A stretch of DNA of 64,000 nt from Burkholderiales bacterium (lineage in GTDB: Bacteria; Pseudomonadota; Gammaproteobacteria; Burkholderiales; Casimicrobiaceae): assembly GCA_905339295.1 (NCBI GenBank), contig CAJPFI010000013.1, positions 124,001-188,000 of the forward strand, in the 5' to 3' direction. Below are positions 15,420 through 23,236 of this stretch, one piece after another. The notes under the pieces were generated by a model. It did no database searches. It was not told the origin of the DNA and was given only the letters and a program-made list of their open reading frames with translations. Numbering within the stretch: position 1 is the first letter of the stretch; each line of letters starts with the position of its first letter. The position numbers were made by a program, and so were the translations under genes.

Positions 15420-15974
15420 CTACACGCGGCGCTTGTACTCGCCGGTGCGCGTGTCGACCTCGATCCGGTCGCCGGTGCTGACGAACAGCGGGACGGCGAC
15501 CTCGAAGCCGGTGCCGAGCTTCGCGGGCTTGGTCACCTTGCCCGACGTGTCGCCCTTGACCGCGGGCTCGGTGTAGCTGACCTCGCGCACGACCGTGTTC
15601 GGCAGCTCGACCGAGATGGCGCGCCCCCCGTAGAACGTGATCTGGCAGGAGAGCCCGTCCTCGAGGTAGCTGAGCGCGTCGCCCATCGACTCCTTCTCGA
15701 CCTCGTACTGGTTGAACTCGCCGTCCATGAACACGTACATCGGGTCGGCGAAATACGAGTAGGTCACGTCCTTCTTGTCGAGCTGGATCGTCTCGAACTT
15801 CTCGTCAGCGCGGTAGATCGTCTCCGTGCCGGTGCCCGACAGGAGGTTCTTGAGCTTCATCTTGACGACGGAGGCGTTGCGGCCGGACTTCGAGAACTCG
15901 GCGCGCTGCACGACCATCGGATCCTTGCCGACCATGATCACGTTGCCGGCCCGGACTTCCTGGGCGATCTTCAT
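15420..15974 (-). CDS. efp: Elongation factor P, arginine-32 type
   Basis: A 184-residue translation factor that relieves ribosome stalling at polyproline stretches. KOW-like domain I and two OB domains are complete. The modified loop reads [12 protein letters not shown], with Arg32 at the tip in place of the lysine found in enterobacterial EF-P. Arg32 is the residue rhamnosylated by EarP in beta- and some gammaproteobacteria, and earP is the adjacent upstream gene. The start ATG is at 15974. Confidence 0.97.
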
Positions 15975-16036: not shown

Positions 16037-16042
16037 ATTATA
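16037..16042 (-). promoter_or_regulatory. -10 box of an efp promoter
   Basis: On the minus strand a consensus TATAAT overlaps the earP stop codon and lies 63-68 nt before the efp ATG. The -35 region is weak (GGTCGA at 17-nt spacing). This suggests that efp has its own promoter in addition to any read-through from earP. Confidence 0.5.
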
Positions 16043-17186
16043 CCCGCTTGCGGGCGAGCTCGACCAGGCCGGAGGCGAGGTCGGCGCGCGAGGCGAGGCC
16101 GTCGGCCCACGCGCGCCGGTGCGGCGCGAGGGCGTCCCGGGCGAGGTCGAAGGCGGGCCACGCCGCGCCGAGCGCGCCGGCGTCCTCGCCGGCCAGCGCG
16201 CCGGTGAACGCGCGCACCGCGGCCGACGGCACCGGAGGCGCCCCGGCCAGGTAGCGGTCGAGGAACGCGGCGACCTTCGCCCGGTGCGCGCCGTCCGGCT
16301 GCGGGTAGGCGTGCCACGCGAACGGGATCGACGCCCACTGCGCGCGCACGAACGAGTCCTCGCCGCGCACGATCGCGAGGTCGCACGACCACAGCAGCGC
16401 GTCGAACGCGCGCTGCGGGACGAACGGAATCGACGCGAGCGTGAGCGCGCCGCGGACGAACGGCGCGCCGGGGTGCGGGACGCGCCCGCCGGTCCAGCGG
16501 TCGACCGCGTCGACGGCCACCCCCTGCGGGACCAGCGCGAGGGTCGGCGAATCGTCCTCCGACCAGGCGTCGAACAGGCCGGCGAGTGCCGGCGTCGGGT
16601 AGCAGAACAGCAGCGCGACGCGCGTCCCGGCGGGCGCGCCGAGGCGGACCGAACGCAGCATCGCGGACCGCGCGGCGGGATCGCGCAGGAAGGCGTCGCG
16701 CTGCGACAGCAGGCCCGATTCGCGCGGCAGGCCGCCGGTGGCCGGCGTGAACCCAGGGCACCAGTACCGCCGCGCCAGGCCCGTGCGCGGTTCGGGCGAC
16801 GAACGCAGGTGCGCGCCGTCGGCCCACGCCTCCGCCGTCAGGTACTCGAGGACGATCCAGAGCGGCGGGCGCGATGCGCGCGCCATCGCATCGACCCACG
16901 GCGCGGGCATGCCGACGCCGAACGCGTCGACCAGCACGTCGGGGGGCGTCCAGGGCGATCCCGGATCGGGCCCGCGCCGGACCGCCACGCCCTCGACCAC
17001 GGACGCGTCGCGCGCGGCGTCGTGGCCGGGGGCCAGGCGCGCCAGCGGCGCGGGATCGTCGATCCACAGCGTCACGCGCTGGCCGTGCTCGGCGGCGAGT
17101 TGCCGCGCGAGGCGAAACGCGACGCCGGCGTCGCCGTAGTTGTCGACGACCCGGCATACGATCTCCCAGTCCAGTGCCGCCTGCAT
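16038..17186 (-). CDS. earP: EF-P arginine rhamnosyltransferase EarP
   Basis: A 382-residue GT-B glycosyltransferase that transfers rhamnose from dTDP-rhamnose to Arg32 of EF-P. The N-terminal motif VVDNYGDAGVAFRLARQL (Asp15 and Asp19) is diagnostic. The C-terminal segment LLWSCDLAIVRGEDSFVRAQ contains the conserved RGEDSF sequence of the sugar-nucleotide site. The start is ATG 17186. It is followed by efp on the same strand, the usual earP-efp pairing. Confidence 0.95.
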   Translation of the reverse strand: MQAALDWEIVCRVVDNYGDAGVAFRLARQLAAEHGQRVTLWIDDPAPLARLAPGHDAARDASVVEGVAVRRGPDPGSPWTPPDVLVDAFGVGMPAPWVDAMARASRPPLWIVLEYLTAEAWADGAHLRSSPEPRTGLARRYWCPGFTPATGGLPRESGLLSQRDAFLRDPAARSAMLRSVRLGAPAGTRVALLFCYPTPALAGLFDAWSEDDSPTLALVPQGVAVDAVDRWTGGRVPHPGAPFVRGALTLASIPFVPQRAFDALLWSCDLAIVRGEDSFVRAQWASIPFAWHAYPQPDGAHRAKVAAFLDRYLAGAPPVPSAAVRAFTGALAGEDAGALGAAWPAFDLARDALAPHRRAWADGLASRADLASGLVELARKRV

Positions 17187-17639: not shown

Positions 17640-17972
17640 ATGCCCCGACTCGCCTGCGCGCTCCCCGCCGCCGTCCTGCTCGCCGTCGCGCCCGTCCCGT
17701 CCGCTCGCGCGGACGAGGCGGCGGTCGAGTCGCTGATGAAGAAGAGCAACTGCATGAAGTGCCACGCCGTCGACAAGAAGAAGGACGGCCCGGCGTTCAA
17801 GCAGATCGCCGCGAAGTACAAGGGCAAGGCCGACGCCGAGGCGACGCTCGTCAAGGCGGTCACGACCGGGCCGAAGGTGAAGATCGACGGGGTCGAGGAA
17901 ACGCACGACTCGCTGAAGACGAAGAACGACGCCGAGGTCAGGGAAGTGGTCAAGTGGATCCTGGCCCGGTAG
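17640..17972 (+). CDS. Class I monoheme cytochrome c, MtoD-like, copy 1
   Basis: A 110-residue exported cytochrome with signal peptide cleaved near ARA-DE and one heme site Cys38-x-x-Cys41-His42 (CMKCH). The fold region (KKDGPAFKQIAAKYKGKADAE) matches small cytochrome c551/c552 proteins, but no methionine follows the heme motif. The only remaining histidine is His89 in GVEETHDSLK. This fits bis-histidine ligation as reported for MtoD of Sideroxydans, a periplasmic shuttle. About 84 percent identical to the next gene over the mature region. It heads the conduit cluster behind an FNR-like box. Confidence 0.9.
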   Translation: MPRLACALPAAVLLAVAPVPSARADEAAVESLMKKSNCMKCHAVDKKKDGPAFKQIAAKYKGKADAEATLVKAVTTGPKVKIDGVEETHDSLKTKNDAEVREVVKWILAR

Positions 17973-17997
17973 ACCCGGAACCCGAAGGAGATTCGAG

Positions 17998-18327
17998 ATG
18001 AGGTTTGCGAAAGCGATGGCCGGCGCGGCCGTGCTGGCATTCGGCATGGCGAACGCCGCCTGGGCGGACGACGCGGCGGTCGAGGCGCTGATGAAGAAGA
18101 GCAACTGCATGAAGTGCCACGCCGTCGACAAGAAGAAGGACGGCCCGGCGTTCAAGGAGACCGCCGCGAAGTACAAGGGCAAGGCCGACGCCGAGGCGAA
18201 GCTCTACACGCATCTCACGACCAGCCCGAAGGTGAAGATCGACGGGGTCGAGGAGACGCACGACAGCCTGAAGACGAAGAACGACGCCGAGGTGAAGGCG
18301 GTGATCAAGTGGATCCTGGCGAAATAG
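17998..18327 (+). CDS. Class I monoheme cytochrome c, MtoD-like, copy 2
   Basis: A 109-residue paralogue of the preceding cytochrome, 25 nt downstream with its own AAGGAG ribosome binding site. The signal peptide ends near AWA-DD and the heme motif is Cys37, Cys40, His41. It also lacks any downstream methionine; His88 (EETHDSLK) is the conserved candidate sixth ligand, and an extra His72 is unique to this copy. The close similarity outside the signal peptide indicates a tandem duplication. Both probably carry electrons between the tetraheme and decaheme cytochromes. Confidence 0.9.
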   Translation: MRFAKAMAGAAVLAFGMANAAWADDAAVEALMKKSNCMKCHAVDKKKDGPAFKETAAKYKGKADAEAKLYTHLTTSPKVKIDGVEETHDSLKTKNDAEVKAVIKWILAK

Positions 18328-18359
18328 GCGCGCCGCGGCGCTGACGGAGGCGGAACGCC

Positions 18360-18962
18360 ATGCTCAAGCGAATCCTGCTCGCGATCCGGGGCCCCGACGC
18401 GGGGCGCGGGACGATCCTCATGCGTTTCGCCGGCGCGGCGGTCGCCTTCGCCGTCATCGCCGGGGGACTCGTCGCGGCGGGCGCCGCCGGCCTCGCGTGG
18501 ACCAACACCGAGGCGTTCTGCATCAGCTGTCACGAGATGCGGGACAACGTCTACGCCGAGTTCAAGGACACGATCCACGACCGCAACCGCACCGGCGTGC
18601 GCGCGATCTGCTCCGATTGCCACGTGCCGCGCCAGGTCGGACCGATGATGGTGCGCAAGATGCGCGCGACCTTCGAGGTGTGGGGGCATCTCACCGGAGT
18701 CATCGACACCAAGGAGAAGTTCGAGTCGCATCGCCACATGCTGGCGACGCGCGTGTGGGCGCGGATGAAGGAGACGGACTCGCTCGAGTGCCGCAACTGC
18801 CACCACACCGAAGCCTGGGACCAGGAAAAGCAGTCCGACCGCGCGAAGGCGCGGCACGAGAAGGGCAAGGCGGAAGGGCTCACGTGCATCGACTGCCATT
18901 ACGGGATCGCGCACAAGGAGCCGGAAGGACCCGGACCCCGGGAGATGAAGGTGGCGAAGTGA
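18360..18962 (+). CDS. NapC/NirT/CymA-type tetraheme quinol cytochrome c
   Basis: A 200-residue membrane-anchored cytochrome. One N-terminal helix (about residues 22-47) is followed by four CxxCH heme sites beginning at Cys54, Cys84, Cys144 and Cys176. This is the NapC/NirT family, which exchanges electrons between the quinone pool and periplasmic partners; CymA and the Mto-cluster equivalent are the relevant relatives. No nap, nrf or nir genes are near, whereas the MtrA/MtrB-type conduit follows directly, so its partner is most likely that conduit. It can act as quinol oxidase or quinone reductase depending on direction of flow. Confidence 0.93.
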   Translation: MLKRILLAIRGPDAGRGTILMRFAGAAVAFAVIAGGLVAAGAAGLAWTNTEAFCISCHEMRDNVYAEFKDTIHDRNRTGVRAICSDCHVPRQVGPMMVRKMRATFEVWGHLTGVIDTKEKFESHRHMLATRVWARMKETDSLECRNCHHTEAWDQEKQSDRAKARHEKGKAEGLTCIDCHYGIAHKEPEGPGPREMKVAK

Positions 18963-19124
18963 CCGGGGACGGGACGGGGCAGGCGGAGACGAAGGGGTAG
19001 CGGGGATCGGGCAGCGGGAGTCGGAGACGGCGCGGGTTCAGCGCGTCGCATCGCAACGGAGCAGGCAGCGCCGGGACGCACCGCATTCGCGGGGGCGATC
19101 CCGATCGGAGCCCGGGAGGTGCCG

Positions 19125-20060
19125 ATGAAGTTCGTACCACAGGGATGGATCGCGGCCGCGCAGGCGGTCGTGCTGGCCTTCGGAATCGCAGCGGTCGCGC
19201 AGGCGCAGACCGCATCGAAGGACCTGGTCCTCACGGGCGACGCGAAGTGCACGCGCTGCCATGACGAAGGCGACGATTACCCGGTGCTCGACATCGGGCG
19301 GACGCGGCACGGCGTGACGGCGGACCAGCGAACACCGACGTGCACGAGCTGCCACGGCGATAGCGCGAGCCACATCACCCGGCCGGGGGGCGTCTCGGTG
19401 CGGCCCAAGCCGGATGTCACGTTCTCGAAGCATTCGGGGAACTCGCCCGAGGAGCGGGGAGCGGCGTGCCTCACCTGCCACGAGCAGGGGGAAAAGCACA
19501 TGTCCTGGCAGGGCAGTCCGCACGATCGCGCCCGTGTCGACTGCGCGAGCTGCCACACGGTGCACACGCCGCGCGACCAGGTGCTCGTCAAGCAGACGCA
19601 GGCGGGCGTGTGCTTCACCTGCCACAAGGAACAGCGCGCGGCGATGTTCCGGTTCTCGTCGCACCCGCTGCGGACCGGCCAGATGGCGTGCTCGTCGTGC
19701 CATCAGCCGCACGGCTCGGTCGGCGACCACAACCTGATCCGCACCACGATCAACGACACCTGCTACACCTGCCACGCCGAGAAGCGGGGGCCGTTCCTGC
19801 ACGAGCACCCGCCGGTGCGCGAGGAGTGCACGAACTGCCACAACCCGCACGGCACCAACAACCCGCAGATGCTCACGGCACGCCCGCCGCACCTGTGCCA
19901 GCAATGCCACGTGGCGCCGTTCCATCCGAGCACGCTCTACAGCGGCAGCAACCTGCCGCCGGCGGTCGGCGCGGACAAGATGCTGGGACAGTCGTGCGCG
20001 AACTGCCATTCGCAGATCCACGGAAGCAACCACCCGTCCGGCCAGCGTTTCACGCGCTGA
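19125..20060 (+). CDS. Decaheme cytochrome c of the MtrA/MtoA/PioA family
   Basis: A 311-residue exported decaheme cytochrome. Ten CxxCH motifs begin at Cys42, 73, 115, 140, 163, 189, 213, 235, 258 and 291, the full MtrA/DmsE set. The signal peptide is cleaved near AQA-QT. The ATG at 19125 follows GGGAGG by a good distance; a GTG six bases earlier is less likely. In known systems this protein is threaded through the MtrB-type barrel and conducts electrons across the outer membrane. The barrel gene follows 24 nt downstream. Length resembles MtrA rather than the N-terminally extended PioA. Confidence 0.95.
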   Translation: MKFVPQGWIAAAQAVVLAFGIAAVAQAQTASKDLVLTGDAKCTRCHDEGDDYPVLDIGRTRHGVTADQRTPTCTSCHGDSASHITRPGGVSVRPKPDVTFSKHSGNSPEERGAACLTCHEQGEKHMSWQGSPHDRARVDCASCHTVHTPRDQVLVKQTQAGVCFTCHKEQRAAMFRFSSHPLRTGQMACSSCHQPHGSVGDHNLIRTTINDTCYTCHAEKRGPFLHEHPPVREECTNCHNPHGTNNPQMLTARPPHLCQQCHVAPFHPSTLYSGSNLPPAVGADKMLGQSCANCHSQIHGSNHPSGQRFTR

Positions 20061-20084
20061 CGACGGCGATCGAGGGGACGGATC

Positions 20085-22430
20085 ATGACCACGAACGATC
20101 GGAATGCCCGGGGATTCGCGGCGAGGCCGCTCGCCGCGGTGATCGCGGCGCTGGTGGCCGGGGGAGCCCTGGCCGAGCCGATGCTCTACGTGCCGCTCAC
20201 CCGTGGCGCGGACATGTCGCGCTACACCGACAACAGCGTCGAGGCCGGCGTCGGCTACTCGGACGAGGACTCGTTCAGGTTCGGCGAGTTCACCGGGATC
20301 CGGAAGAGCGAGGCGTTCTTCATCGGCAACGCCAACGTGCGGATGCGGCCGGGGAACGACGGCCGCTACCTCAACGCGTACGCATGGAACCTGGGACTGC
20401 CGTCGCGCGAGCTCGGCGGCGAGTACGGGCGCCAGGGCCTGTGGGGCGTGAGCGCGAGCTACCAGCAGATCCATCGCTACCAGTTCGACGACGCGCTGTT
20501 CATCCACGAGGGGCTCGGCTCGAACCGGCTCACGCTCCCCGCGGGCTTCACCGGCCTCGCCGGCCAGCCCCCGACCCAGGCGGCGGCGGTCGCGCCGTTC
20601 CTGCGGCAATACGACATCAAGCAGGAGCGCGACATCCTGAGGGTAGGCGGCAAGGTCGCGCTCGGCAACGGCTTCGGCCTGACGATCAGCTTCCGGCAGG
20701 ACGAGCGCGACGGCACCAAGCTCGTGGGCGCGGTCATGGGCAATTCCGGCGGCAATCCGCGGGCGGCCGTCATCCCGTACGAGCTGAACGACCGCACGCA
20801 GCAGGTCGAGGCCTCGTTGCACTGGGCCAGCAAGGCCGCGCAGCTCAACCTGTCGTACTGGTACTCGCGCTACGACAACGACAACTCGTCGTTCACCTGG
20901 CAGAACCCGTACGCCATCATCGCCGGCTGGGCCGGCGCCTCCGGGTTCCCGACCGGCTACGGGCGCCTCGCGGCGATGCCGTCGAACGACTTCCACCAGT
21001 TCCAGCTGACCGGCGGCTGGAGCGTCACGCCGACGACGCGGTTGAACGGCGTCGTCTCGTACAGCATCGCGCGGCAGAACGAATCGTTCCTGCCCTACAC
21101 GATCAACACCGCGGGCGAGACGCCCGGAACGTCGCTTTCCGACCCCAACGCGCTGCCGCGCAGCTCGCTGGACGGCGAGATCCGGAACACGACGGTCGAC
21201 CTGTCGGTGTTCTCGCGGCCGATGCCCAGGCTGTCGGTGAAGGCGCGCTACCGCTACCAGGAGCACGACAACAAGACGCCCTCCGACGTCTACGGGTACG
21301 TCGGCGGCGACACCACCGACCAGGTTCCGGTCGTGAGCGACGCGGTCAACAGCACGCGCATCCGGCGCAACCTGCCGCCGGGCACGAAGGAGAACCGGTT
21401 CAAGGTCGACGCCGACTGGCAGATCGCCCGCGGGACGCTGCTGCGCGGCTGGTACCAGTACCGGCAGATCGACTACGAGGAGGCCGCGCACGAGCTCCGC
21501 ACCGACACCGACAACAACGAGTTCGGCGCCGAGATCCGCAAGGTGATGGGCGACGGGTTCACGGGCGCGGTGCGCTACGTGTTCGACCAGCGCCGCGGAT
21601 CGGACTACGACAACTCGCGCCCGTACCACGGGAGCTTCACGTCCGCCACGACGACGGCGCAGCCGATCCCGGACAACGTGCCGACGCTGCGCCACTTCTT
21701 CGTCTCCAGCTACGACAAGAACCTCGTCCGCGCCGAGGCCGCGTTCTCGCCGCTCGACCGGCTCTCGCTCACCGCGCGCGCGGACTGGTACAAGATGGAC
21801 TACAAGGGCCCGGACTGCGGCGGCACGAACGACCAGGTGCTCGCGCCGGCGAACGTGTTCCCGAGCGAGTGCCTGGGCCGCACCGAGGCGATCGGCGAGA
21901 GCTACACGGTCGACGGCTCGTGGGTCCCGATGGACGGCGTCAACGCGTTCCTCTTCTACACGTACTCGCGCTTCTCGACCGAGCAGGCGAGCCGCTCGTG
22001 GAACAACAGCGTGGCGCAGGCGATCAGCACCGGCCAGAACTGGCAGGCGTCGCTCGAGTATTCCGACCACACGGCCGGCGCCGGCGTGCGCTACACGCCG
22101 GCGAGCAAGCAGTGGGACGCCGGCGCGCAGGTCGTCTTCAGCGACGGCACGGGCAAGACGAGCCTCACGCCGGGCTCGGCATTGGCTGCGCCCCTGTCGG
22201 TGCCGGACATCCGGACGAAGCTCACGTCGATCCAGCTGTTCGGCAAGTACCAGGTGAACAAGAACGTGCTGGTGCGGCTCAACTACGCGCACGAACGGTT
22301 CCGCAACAGCGACTGGGCCTTCGACAACGCGACGCCGACGTCGTCCAACAACGTGCTGCTTACCGGACACCAGGCGCCGACCTACGACGCGAACGTGTTC
22401 GGGGTGTCGGTCGCGTACACGGGCTGGTAG
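20085..22430 (+). CDS. MtrB/MtoB/PioB-family outer-membrane porin of the cytochrome conduit
   Basis: A 781-residue beta-barrel with a signal peptide (cleavage near ALA-EP). Alternating aromatic and polar strands run to the end, and the last residue is tryptophan (VSVAYTGW), the usual outer-membrane sorting signal. Length and placement after the decaheme gene match MtrB/PioB barrels, which insulate MtrA-type cytochromes. No CxxC pair occurs near the N-terminus, unlike Shewanella MtrB; the only cysteines I noticed lie in a loop (PDCGGTND and PSECLG). No surface MtrC/OmcA-type cytochrome follows. Confidence 0.92.
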   Translation: MTTNDRNARGFAARPLAAVIAALVAGGALAEPMLYVPLTRGADMSRYTDNSVEAGVGYSDEDSFRFGEFTGIRKSEAFFIGNANVRMRPGNDGRYLNAYAWNLGLPSRELGGEYGRQGLWGVSASYQQIHRYQFDDALFIHEGLGSNRLTLPAGFTGLAGQPPTQAAAVAPFLRQYDIKQERDILRVGGKVALGNGFGLTISFRQDERDGTKLVGAVMGNSGGNPRAAVIPYELNDRTQQVEASLHWASKAAQLNLSYWYSRYDNDNSSFTWQNPYAIIAGWAGASGFPTGYGRLAAMPSNDFHQFQLTGGWSVTPTTRLNGVVSYSIARQNESFLPYTINTAGETPGTSLSDPNALPRSSLDGEIRNTTVDLSVFSRPMPRLSVKARYRYQEHDNKTPSDVYGYVGGDTTDQVPVVSDAVNSTRIRRNLPPGTKENRFKVDADWQIARGTLLRGWYQYRQIDYEEAAHELRTDTDNNEFGAEIRKVMGDGFTGAVRYVFDQRRGSDYDNSRPYHGSFTSATTTAQPIPDNVPTLRHFFVSSYDKNLVRAEAAFSPLDRLSLTARADWYKMDYKGPDCGGTNDQVLAPANVFPSECLGRTEAIGESYTVDGSWVPMDGVNAFLFYTYSRFSTEQASRSWNNSVAQAISTGQNWQASLEYSDHTAGAGVRYTPASKQWDAGAQVVFSDGTGKTSLTPGSALAAPLSVPDIRTKLTSIQLFGKYQVNKNVLVRLNYAHERFRNSDWAFDNATPTSSNNVLLTGHQAPTYDANVFGVSVAYTGW

Positions 22431-22439
22431 CCGCGAGGG

Positions 22440-22503
22440 GCGCCGGACGGGCGCGCCGGGCCGCGACGAGGCGCGACAGGGGCGCGCCTGCCGCGTCCGG
22501 CGC
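22440..22503. terminator. Inverted repeat after the conduit cluster, possible terminator
   Basis: GCGCCGGACG at 22440-22449 is exactly complementary to CGTCCGGCGC at 22494-22503, so a 10-bp stem with a long GC-rich loop can form just after the barrel gene stop. No T-tract follows, so this would not be a classical intrinsic terminator. Confidence 0.3.
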
Positions 22504-22558
22504 GCGCGGCGTTTTCGTCTACGGGTCCCGGAGTCCGCGGCTCGCTCCGCTTCAGCTC

Positions 22559-23236
22559 ATGTCTTCCCCTGACGATTCCGCGCGCGTCACGCTCGTCGAC
22601 GTCGTCTCCGACGTCGTCTGCCCGTGGTGCTACATCGGCAAGCGGCACCTCGAGGCGGCGCTCGCCATGGTCGCCGAGGCCGGCGGCGACACGCCCGTCG
22701 TGCGCTGGCACCCGTTCGAGCTCAATCCCGGCATCGCCGGCGAAGGGGTCGACCGGCGCGAGCATATCGAGCGCAAGTTCGGCGGACCGGCGCGCGCCGC
22801 GCAGGCCTACGACCGCGTGCGGCGTGCCGGGACGCAGGCCGGCATCGCGTTCGACTTCGAGCGCATCGCGCGGCAGCCGAACACGCGCGACGCGCATCGG
22901 CTGATCGCGTGGGCGCAGACGCGCGGCGACGCGTCCGCGCTGGTCGAGCGGCTGTTCCGCGCGTACTTCGTCGACGGCCTGTTCGTCGGTTCGCGTGAGG
23001 TGCTGGCCGACCTCGCCGCCGAGGCGGGCGAGGATCGCGATGCGGCGCGTGCGTTCCTCGACTCGGGCGTCGGAGCGAGCGAGATCGAGGACGCGGAGGC
23101 GCGCGCGGCCTCGCTGGGCATCACCGGCGTGCCGTTCTTCATCGTCGACGGGCGTTACGGCCTGTCCGGCGCGCAGCCCGCCGCGACGATCGTCGAGGCG
23201 CTGTCTCGCGCTCGACGGGCGCAGGCGGCGGACTAG
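22559..23236 (+). CDS. DsbA-family oxidoreductase (FrnE-like)
   Basis: A 225-residue thioredoxin-fold protein with Cys21-Pro-Trp-Cys24 in VSDVVCPWCYIG, the signature of the cytoplasmic FrnE/HCCA-isomerase branch of DsbA. The cis-proline region reads GITGVPFFIVDGRYGLSGAQP. No signal peptide is seen, so it probably acts in the cytoplasm. Substrates are unknown. It follows the conduit cluster on the same strand after 128 nt, but the link is probably only positional. Confidence 0.9.
   Translation: MSSPDDSARVTLVDVVSDVVCPWCYIGKRHLEAALAMVAEAGGDTPVVRWHPFELNPGIAGEGVDRREHIERKFGGPARAAQAYDRVRRAGTQAGIAFDFERIARQPNTRDAHRLIAWAQTRGDASALVERLFRAYFVDGLFVGSREVLADLAAEAGEDRDAARAFLDSGVGASEIEDAEARAASLGITGVPFFIVDGRYGLSGAQPAATIVEALSRARRAQAAD

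Follow-up and report, generated by a model that had tools for sequence, protein, structure and literature searches.

The five genes at positions 17640-22430 of a 64-kb stretch of Burkholderiales DNA (64,000 nucleotides, here called the window) raise the question of what kind of outer-membrane electron conduit they encode, and in which direction it would carry electrons. The analysis of gene content, phylogeny and genome context suggests that they encode a variant of the known Mto conduit, which is probably functional. We consider it rather likely that this conduit works with net inward flow, from an extracellular reductant.

Gene content of the operon

The genes are consecutive on the plus strand, at exactly the coordinates given by the original prediction. 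Its description of them as two monoheme cytochromes, a four-heme NapC-type cytochrome, a ten-heme MtrA/MtoA-type cytochrome and an MtrB-type barrel ending in tryptophan agrees with the motif counts and the family matches (aa, amino acids):

17640-17972, plus strand: mtoD-like gene 1, monoheme class I cytochrome c, 110 aa, one CXXCH (PF00034, 36.6 bits)
17998-18327, plus strand: mtoD-like gene 2, its tandem paralogue, 109 aa, one CXXCH (best PDB match 4xxl_A, E 4.9e-25)
18360-18962, plus strand: tetraheme NapC/NirT-family cytochrome, 200 aa, four CXXCH (PF03264, 211.5 bits)
19125-20060, plus strand: mtoA-like decaheme cytochrome, 311 aa, ten CXXCH (TIGR03508, 269.6 bits)
20085-22430, plus strand: mtoB-like 26-strand outer-membrane beta-barrel, 781 aa, C-terminus AYTGW (TIGR03509, 368.6 bits)

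All five reading frames are intact, no heme motif is lost, and the intergenic gaps are 25, 32, 162 and 24 bases in gene order. The mechanical open reading frame (ORF) of the decaheme gene starts from GTG 19119, but GGGAGGTG stands directly 5' of ATG 19125. The CXXCH-bearing stop-to-stop ORFs of at least 80 aa in the window are precisely the four cytochromes of this set, with 16 motifs, and because the operon holds every such ORF, chance is not an issue. Signal-peptide-like N-termini of both monoheme proteins and a hydrophobic N-terminal stretch of the NapC protein, a putative anchor, were recognized by eye.

The score of the decaheme protein is above the curated TIGR03508 cut-off of 192.2 bits, and its match to the MtrA chain 6r2q_A has an E value of 2.5e-76 (the molecule name in this PDB file is wrong). 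The protein contains 16 histidines besides those of its ten CXXCH motifs. The barrel, which clears the TIGR03509 cut-off of 240.05 bits, has the same fold as MtrB. An MtrA/DmsE-family decaheme with an adjacent MtrB/PioB-family barrel, as present here, is what characterizes the MtrAB/MtoAB/PioAB superfamily.

The NapC protein passed the PF03264 cut-off of 24.1 bits and scored 228.5 bits against TIGR02161, under the cut-off of 310.6 bits; the corresponding NapC/NirT model scores were 302.0 bits for ImoA of Sideroxydans ES-1 and 219.7 bits for a related locus (L022). A phmmer search of the PDB with the window NapC gave 0 matches. Its heme I motif, CISCHEM, retains the methionine that is also described for ES-1 CymA (PMC10654088).

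Both monoheme proteins are 49-51% identical to ES-1 MtoD (51% over 91 aa for the gene 1 protein against the piece in PDB 4xxl). The histidine corresponding to the distal ligand, which is His95 as the sixth heme ligand of ES-1 MtoD (PMC4412085), is conserved in the alignment of both proteins, within EETH in gene 1. Judged from these residues, they are predicted bis-histidine class I cytochromes of the MtoD kind.

Relationships of the conduit proteins

Named genomes were scanned with the decaheme of the window, and the best 80 of the 130 loci found went into the comparison, so that the set is biased accordingly; by their titles they are mostly from betaproteobacteria, with some from gammaproteobacteria. 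Class- and phylum-wide profile searches contributed the Mtr- and Dms-like loci; the decaheme was above the family cut-off in 25 of 369 genomes of the class sample, and the barrel in 22 of 398 genomes of the phylum sample. The reference cluster (L236) was found via an MtoD 100% identical to the 4xxl piece used, and its genome is presumably that of ES-1; the search that located it gave matches with E values of 1e-30 or lower in 27 of the 158 genomes of that family. Three duplicates, L018 (= L050), L240 (= L070) and L243 (= L049), were removed before counting. The decaheme trees contained 139 rows or, for the more careful tree, 66 of these 139, picked by hand for spread; no authentic PioA or PioB was among the rows.

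The data showed that the window decaheme lies on the MtoA side of the split between MtoA and MtrA/DmsE, with 100/100 support in the 66-row tree for both the Mto side (46 rows) and the Mtr/Dms side (20 rows). A six-member clade, made up of the window, L013 and L014 (both from genome G009), L015, L021 and L022, had support of 100 in the 139-row tree and 100/100 in the 66-row tree. In the latter this clade was joined by L016 and L148 (97/87), and the remaining 38 Mto rows made up the neighbouring group (96/83). Topologies joining the window clade with eight ES-1-type MtoA rows or with nine Shewanella-type rows were rejected by the approximately unbiased (AU) test (p 6e-11 and 5e-6, respectively). 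A placement as the first branch of the Mto side, next to the 20 Mtr/Dms rows, was compatible with the data (AU p 0.171), so the depth of the clade on the Mto side is only tentative.

The barrel tree, built from 126 rows under a simpler model, recovered the same six-member clade (100) and a wider clade of ten (99), and gave no resolved order of the main groups. It covered barrels of at least 600 aa that the window barrel matched in phmmer, and two DmsF rows added by hand. As judged by these trees, MtoA and MtoB of the window form a deep separate lineage, other than the ES-1 type, which searches with ES-1-based markers may score poorly.

The window NapC protein fell in a 13-row clade supported at 100/99 in both NapC trees, which had 51 rows and 47 rows, the latter after removal of L156, L139, L211 and L067 as long or distant. 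The gene order MtoD-like, NapC, decaheme, barrel is kept in 12 of the 13 members (the window and 11 loci), and the contig of the thirteenth, L013, starts at its NapC gene. ES-1 ImoA belongs to a different NapC group, most of whose genes stand 3' of the barrel gene. A topology that joins the NapC protein of the window to eight rows of the ES-1 type cost 152 log units and was rejected (AU p 5.47e-27), in a run that warns of long branches meeting. Because of this warning and the long stem, the root of the clade is less sure than its unity. Since the NapC protein is outside the ImoA clade, we call the cluster a variant and not an ES-1-type mto operon. The globular parts of the window NapC and ES-1 ImoA/CymA are 58.9% identical over 146 aa, which suggests that the two proteins are likely alike in function.

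Members of the NapC clade occur together with decahemes of several MtoA clades (L028 and L034; L029 and L031; L023 and L058), which suggests that parts were exchanged or lost in places. Two members from Thiobacillus metagenome-assembled genomes (MAGs), at L023:7341-7931 and L058:2778-3431, have CTTSCH as their first heme motif, that is, CXXCH plus one residue.

The two mtoD-like genes of the window are 85.8% identical over 310 bases, and their proteins 84% over 87 aa; the copies were sisters in the MtoD tree (Shimodaira-Hasegawa-like approximate likelihood ratio test 99, from few columns). The pairs of L015, L021 and L022 split into two lines across genomes. A few sites suggest that the window pair may have had a two-line origin, followed by gene conversion. 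When same-strand phmmer matches to this pair at most 4.5 kb from the decaheme were counted, an MtoD-like gene was present in 84 of 108 Mto-side rows (window excluded) versus 0 of 29 Mtr/Dms-side rows, and two such genes in eight of the 108 (seven loci).

The families and the trees agree with the predicted conduit of the Mto kind, which comes with monohemes for the periplasm and a cytochrome for the quinone side. The proposed correspondence to Sideroxydans mtoABCD stands for the kinds of MtoA, MtoB and MtoD; it does not extend to the NapC protein, which is no orthologue of ES-1 CymA/ImoA, and the window MtoA and MtoB belong to their separate lineage.

In the passages of open-access papers that were searched, neither the NapC clade between mtoD and mtoA nor the tandem mtoD pattern was described. 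One paper reports cymA beside mtrA- or mtoA-like genes in a few species (PMC6295460), and a 2026 paper on Ferrovaceae (PMC13390463) describes a region with a decaheme, a barrel, a NapC protein and a further cytochrome. Public MAGs already contain clusters with this order; what may be new is the description, not the sequence.

Several other arrangements of decaheme-barrel pairs were seen among the fetched loci. In L148 (genome G077, 1.5 Mb) a pair that belongs to the wider clade around the window stands without neighbouring genes of the MtoD or NapC type. Three successive pairs are present in a Sterolibacterium MAG (L056, 4237-15909) and two in L088 (7941-15358). All five Nitrosomonas loci (L036, L040, L041, L044 and L057) have a pair, and the fetched DNA around it, which for L040 covers less than 1 kb upstream, contains neither an MtoD-like nor a NapC gene. 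A very divergent pair from the window's own genus (L020, genome G002; barrel 27% identical) forms the longest end branch in the barrel tree as well as in the decaheme tree of 139 rows, and is possibly another kind of conduit. A search of 72,556 plasmid records gave one match, of 37%, in Photobacterium.

Direction of electron flow and the host genome

In the mechanism that we propose, the five genes would provide a complete electron path. MtoA would sit inside the MtoB barrel and connect the periplasm electrically with the cell surface, at least one of the two MtoD-type monohemes would shuttle electrons across the periplasm, and the membrane-anchored NapC-clade cytochrome would exchange electrons with the quinone pool, presumably of ubiquinone. 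The flow would most likely be inward, for example from mineral-bound Fe(II), to respiration and, by means of a Calvin cycle whose genes lie on another contig of the bin, to CO2 fixation in a facultative lithotroph.

The bin (98.13% complete, 1.51% contaminated, 60 contigs), presumably that of a betaproteobacterium in the older classification, encodes the large subunit of a form I RuBisCO (450.7 bits for PF00016; 790.6 for PRK04208). It lies in a run on contig C2 (L272:184-5185) together with CbbX, class 1 fructose bisphosphatase and phosphoribulokinase and, as recognized by eye, small-subunit-like and LysR-like ORFs. Contig C47 of the same genome (L274:4658-5815) encodes a further protein, of 386 aa, that is RuBisCO-like (69.7 bits for PF00016).

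Contig C30 (L160:2-3856) encodes a 27-motif cytochrome, a repetitive multiheme ORF running off the contig end, and a 298-aa protein in which an SGXXG motif is framed by two WX3HX13H motifs. Repeats similar to those of the cut ORF stand at the start of contig C33 (L162:3-329). The C30 features match the marks described for PCC3 (PMC5566968), and on this basis the bin is predicted to contain parts of a PCC3-type cluster. A 740-aa ORF at L162:283-2502, whose sole family match is a weak one to BamD, is a candidate PCC3 porin. A 561-aa ORF at L160:3847-5529 was rejected for this role, as it has no family match and is antisense to a gene on the opposite strand.

Neither MenD (none above the cut-off) nor MqnA was found in the genome, which is why ubiquinone is taken as the host quinone, and this speaks against metal reduction driven by menaquinol. 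The Calvin-cycle operon, the PCC3 parts and the lack of detected menaquinone genes together favour electron uptake over metal reduction, without proof. The chromosome had been described as otherwise heterotrophic, and that picture was incomplete, as the bin also contains the RuBisCO operon and the PCC3 parts, each on its own small contig. Fe(II) oxidation, metal reduction and electrode exchange had all been proposed as possible uses. Direction and substrate, like complex formation, redox activity and partners, are inferences here, as distinct from the observed gene content, heme motifs, conserved ligand residues, barrel fold, tree placement and empty site in relatives. A betaproteobacterial bin with MtoAB and without RuBisCO has been reported (PMC7767972).

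Several observations weigh against the proposed mechanism with inward flow. The contigs that carry RuBisCO and PCC3 are short (27,391 bases for C2 and 24,254 for C30), and given the contamination of the bin both could be misbinned. In ES-1, MtoD (+155 mV) bound neither ImoA nor MtoA, while PmcA (about -143 mV) bound both (PMC13390432), and MtoD was undetected in every culture of a magnetite study (PMC12016527). A PmcA homologue was not found in the window's genome, in a search without a positive control, nor in any fetched locus except that of ES-1 itself (L236:3318-3755). The periplasmic link is consequently unproven here. Among the fetched loci the pmcA gene is thus not generally encoded beside Mto genes, and PmcA is probably not a defining feature of Mto. 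In Sideroxydans CL21 it was mtoD whose expression tracked iron-oxidizing ability best among the mto set (PMC12442390).

The main rival is outward flow, since related parts can run both ways: the proteins of the operon would act like MtrAB with CymA and, at low oxygen, discharge electrons from respiration to extracellular acceptors such as Fe(III) minerals or humic matter. NapC/NirT proteins classically oxidize quinol. In addition, MtrAB-type conduits can be made to run in both directions (PMC8805035), ES-1 ImoA can oxidize quinol in Shewanella (PMC9600427), and the window contains organotrophic genes according to the original prediction; these three points also count against inward flow. On the other side, the lack of a detected menaquinone route means that the quinol would be high-potential ubiquinol, no extracellular MtrC-like partner is present in the operon or the window, and the decaheme groups with MtoA and not with Shewanella MtrA/DmsE. 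This last split is no proof of direction, as MtoA and PioA form no function-specific clade in a published tree, which calls for caution in deducing direction from phylogeny (PMC8805035). Taken together, we regard outward flow as unlikely, and inward flow through a working Mto-type conduit as the better explanation.

Another explanation is that the cluster was acquired horizontally and is now silent or decaying, without present use. The features around the operon are the following:

15420-15974: efp, in the left flank with earP
16038-17186, minus strand: earP, EF-P rhamnosyltransferase, left flank (PF10093, 386.3 bits)
22489-22511, plus strand: terminator-like hairpin 3' of the barrel gene (weak evidence)
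22559-23236, plus strand: DsbA-like gene with a DSBA domain, right flank (PF01323, 144.6 bits)

Seven terminator-like sites were found in the window compared to a mean of 3.0 after shuffling; there were 0 promoter-like sites and no tRNA in it.

The earP gene is present in 21 of 22 genomes of the genus, and the site was inspected in nine of the 20 besides the window's own. Eight of these nine have earP adjoining the DsbA-like gene with no mto gene between them, and in the ninth neither a DsbA match nor an mto gene was found. In G009, whose bin is rated 9% contaminated, the site is empty and two related clusters are present elsewhere. The location between earP and the DsbA-like gene indicates that the operon belongs to this genome, and the simplest reading is that it was gained at this site in the window's lineage, with losses elsewhere as the alternative. 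The spread of mtr clusters in passenger style is known (PMC8805035).

The absence from the relatives' site, the patchy distribution in the genus (a barrel match of any kind in 3 of 22 genomes, a close one in 2 of 22) and the guanine plus cytosine (G+C) content of the operon, 0.683, lower in only 1 of 297 sliding stretches of equal length, could be expected of a silent newcomer. The third-position G+C (0.91-0.97) resembles that of the neighbouring genes, however, and the low overall value was therefore dropped as a sign of recent transfer. The intact frames, the complete heme motifs and the gene order kept by kin in other genomes also argue against decay, which makes a cluster without present use very improbable. 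We consider it most improbable of all that the genes form a DmsEF-type module for an extracellular molybdenum reductase (acting on DMSO, iodate or similar compounds): the decaheme matches an NCBI family that bears the DmsE name, but a grouping with the two Shewanella-type DmsE rows, the outcome that the original prediction had raised against itself, cost 170 log units and was rejected (AU p 0.0002), and the flanks are EarP and a DsbA-like protein where both DmsE-labelled loci carry a molybdopterin oxidoreductase.

Within the inward-flowing Mto-type conduit the monoheme pair allows a more specific proposal, which we put forward tentatively and consider doubtful. The operon could be a second, separately wired Mto architecture with its own NapC-clade connector, in which the MtoD pair would replace PmcA, and one copy would serve the quinone pool and the other a high-potential oxidase branch. 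If true, a single operon would contain the branch point at which electrons go either to energy generation or to CO2 fixation. MtoD was long assumed to link MtoA to the inner membrane until it showed no interaction and PmcA did (PMC13390432), and which small cytochrome makes this connection is unsettled even in the model organism. The MtoD-type genes of the window and of three kin loci, two in each, stand beside a different NapC clade with no PmcA found, which makes them natural comparisons; such operons could let the role of MtoD as a quinone-side shuttle be judged.

Comparison with known systems

The ES-1 cluster has the order MtoD-MtoA-MtoB-ImoA, with the one-heme PmcA gene after ImoA (gene names after PMC12016527 and PMC13390432). 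The window resembles it in the decaheme (44.9% identity over 296 aa), the barrel (23.3% over 808), a monoheme MtoD, a tetraheme NapC-family protein and the lack of an adjacent MtrC-like gene. It is different from ES-1 in its order (two MtoD, NapC, MtoA, MtoB), in having two MtoD copies and no PmcA found, and in the clades of its NapC and MtoA. ES-1 has both Mto and PCC3 (PMC12016527). The latter is likewise a proposed porin-cytochrome route (He and others 2017, PMC5566968), which according to its description lacks homology to MtoAB, and in the window's bin its parts are on other contigs.

The decaheme is 47.8% identical over 276 aa to MtrA of the Shewanella MtrCAB complex (PDB 6r2q), with which the operon also shares the MtrB fold of the barrel. 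Unlike MtrCAB, the operon lacks MtrC and includes MtoD and NapC, and its decaheme is across the main split. The 64-kb window contains no further multiheme ORF that could be an MtrC/OmcA-type gene. Genome-wide, PF09699, the only such profile run, gave matches above the cut-off in the operon and on C30, and weaker ones on C17 and C33, and an MtrC gene may lie elsewhere in the genome. In comparison to Rhodopseudomonas PioA, the 311-aa decaheme is too short for the PioA extension (residues 1-270), which is called rare outside Rhodopseudomonas (PMC10654088).

The same gene order and two MtoD-like genes are found in the clusters of the Burkholderiales MAGs SJ14 (L021) and PRO12 (L022) and of genome G034 (L015). 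Their MtoD copies form the two cross-genome lines, unlike the sister copies of the window, while in the aligned parts their proteins are 62-71% identical to the window decaheme, 53-61% to its barrel and 67-69% to its NapC.

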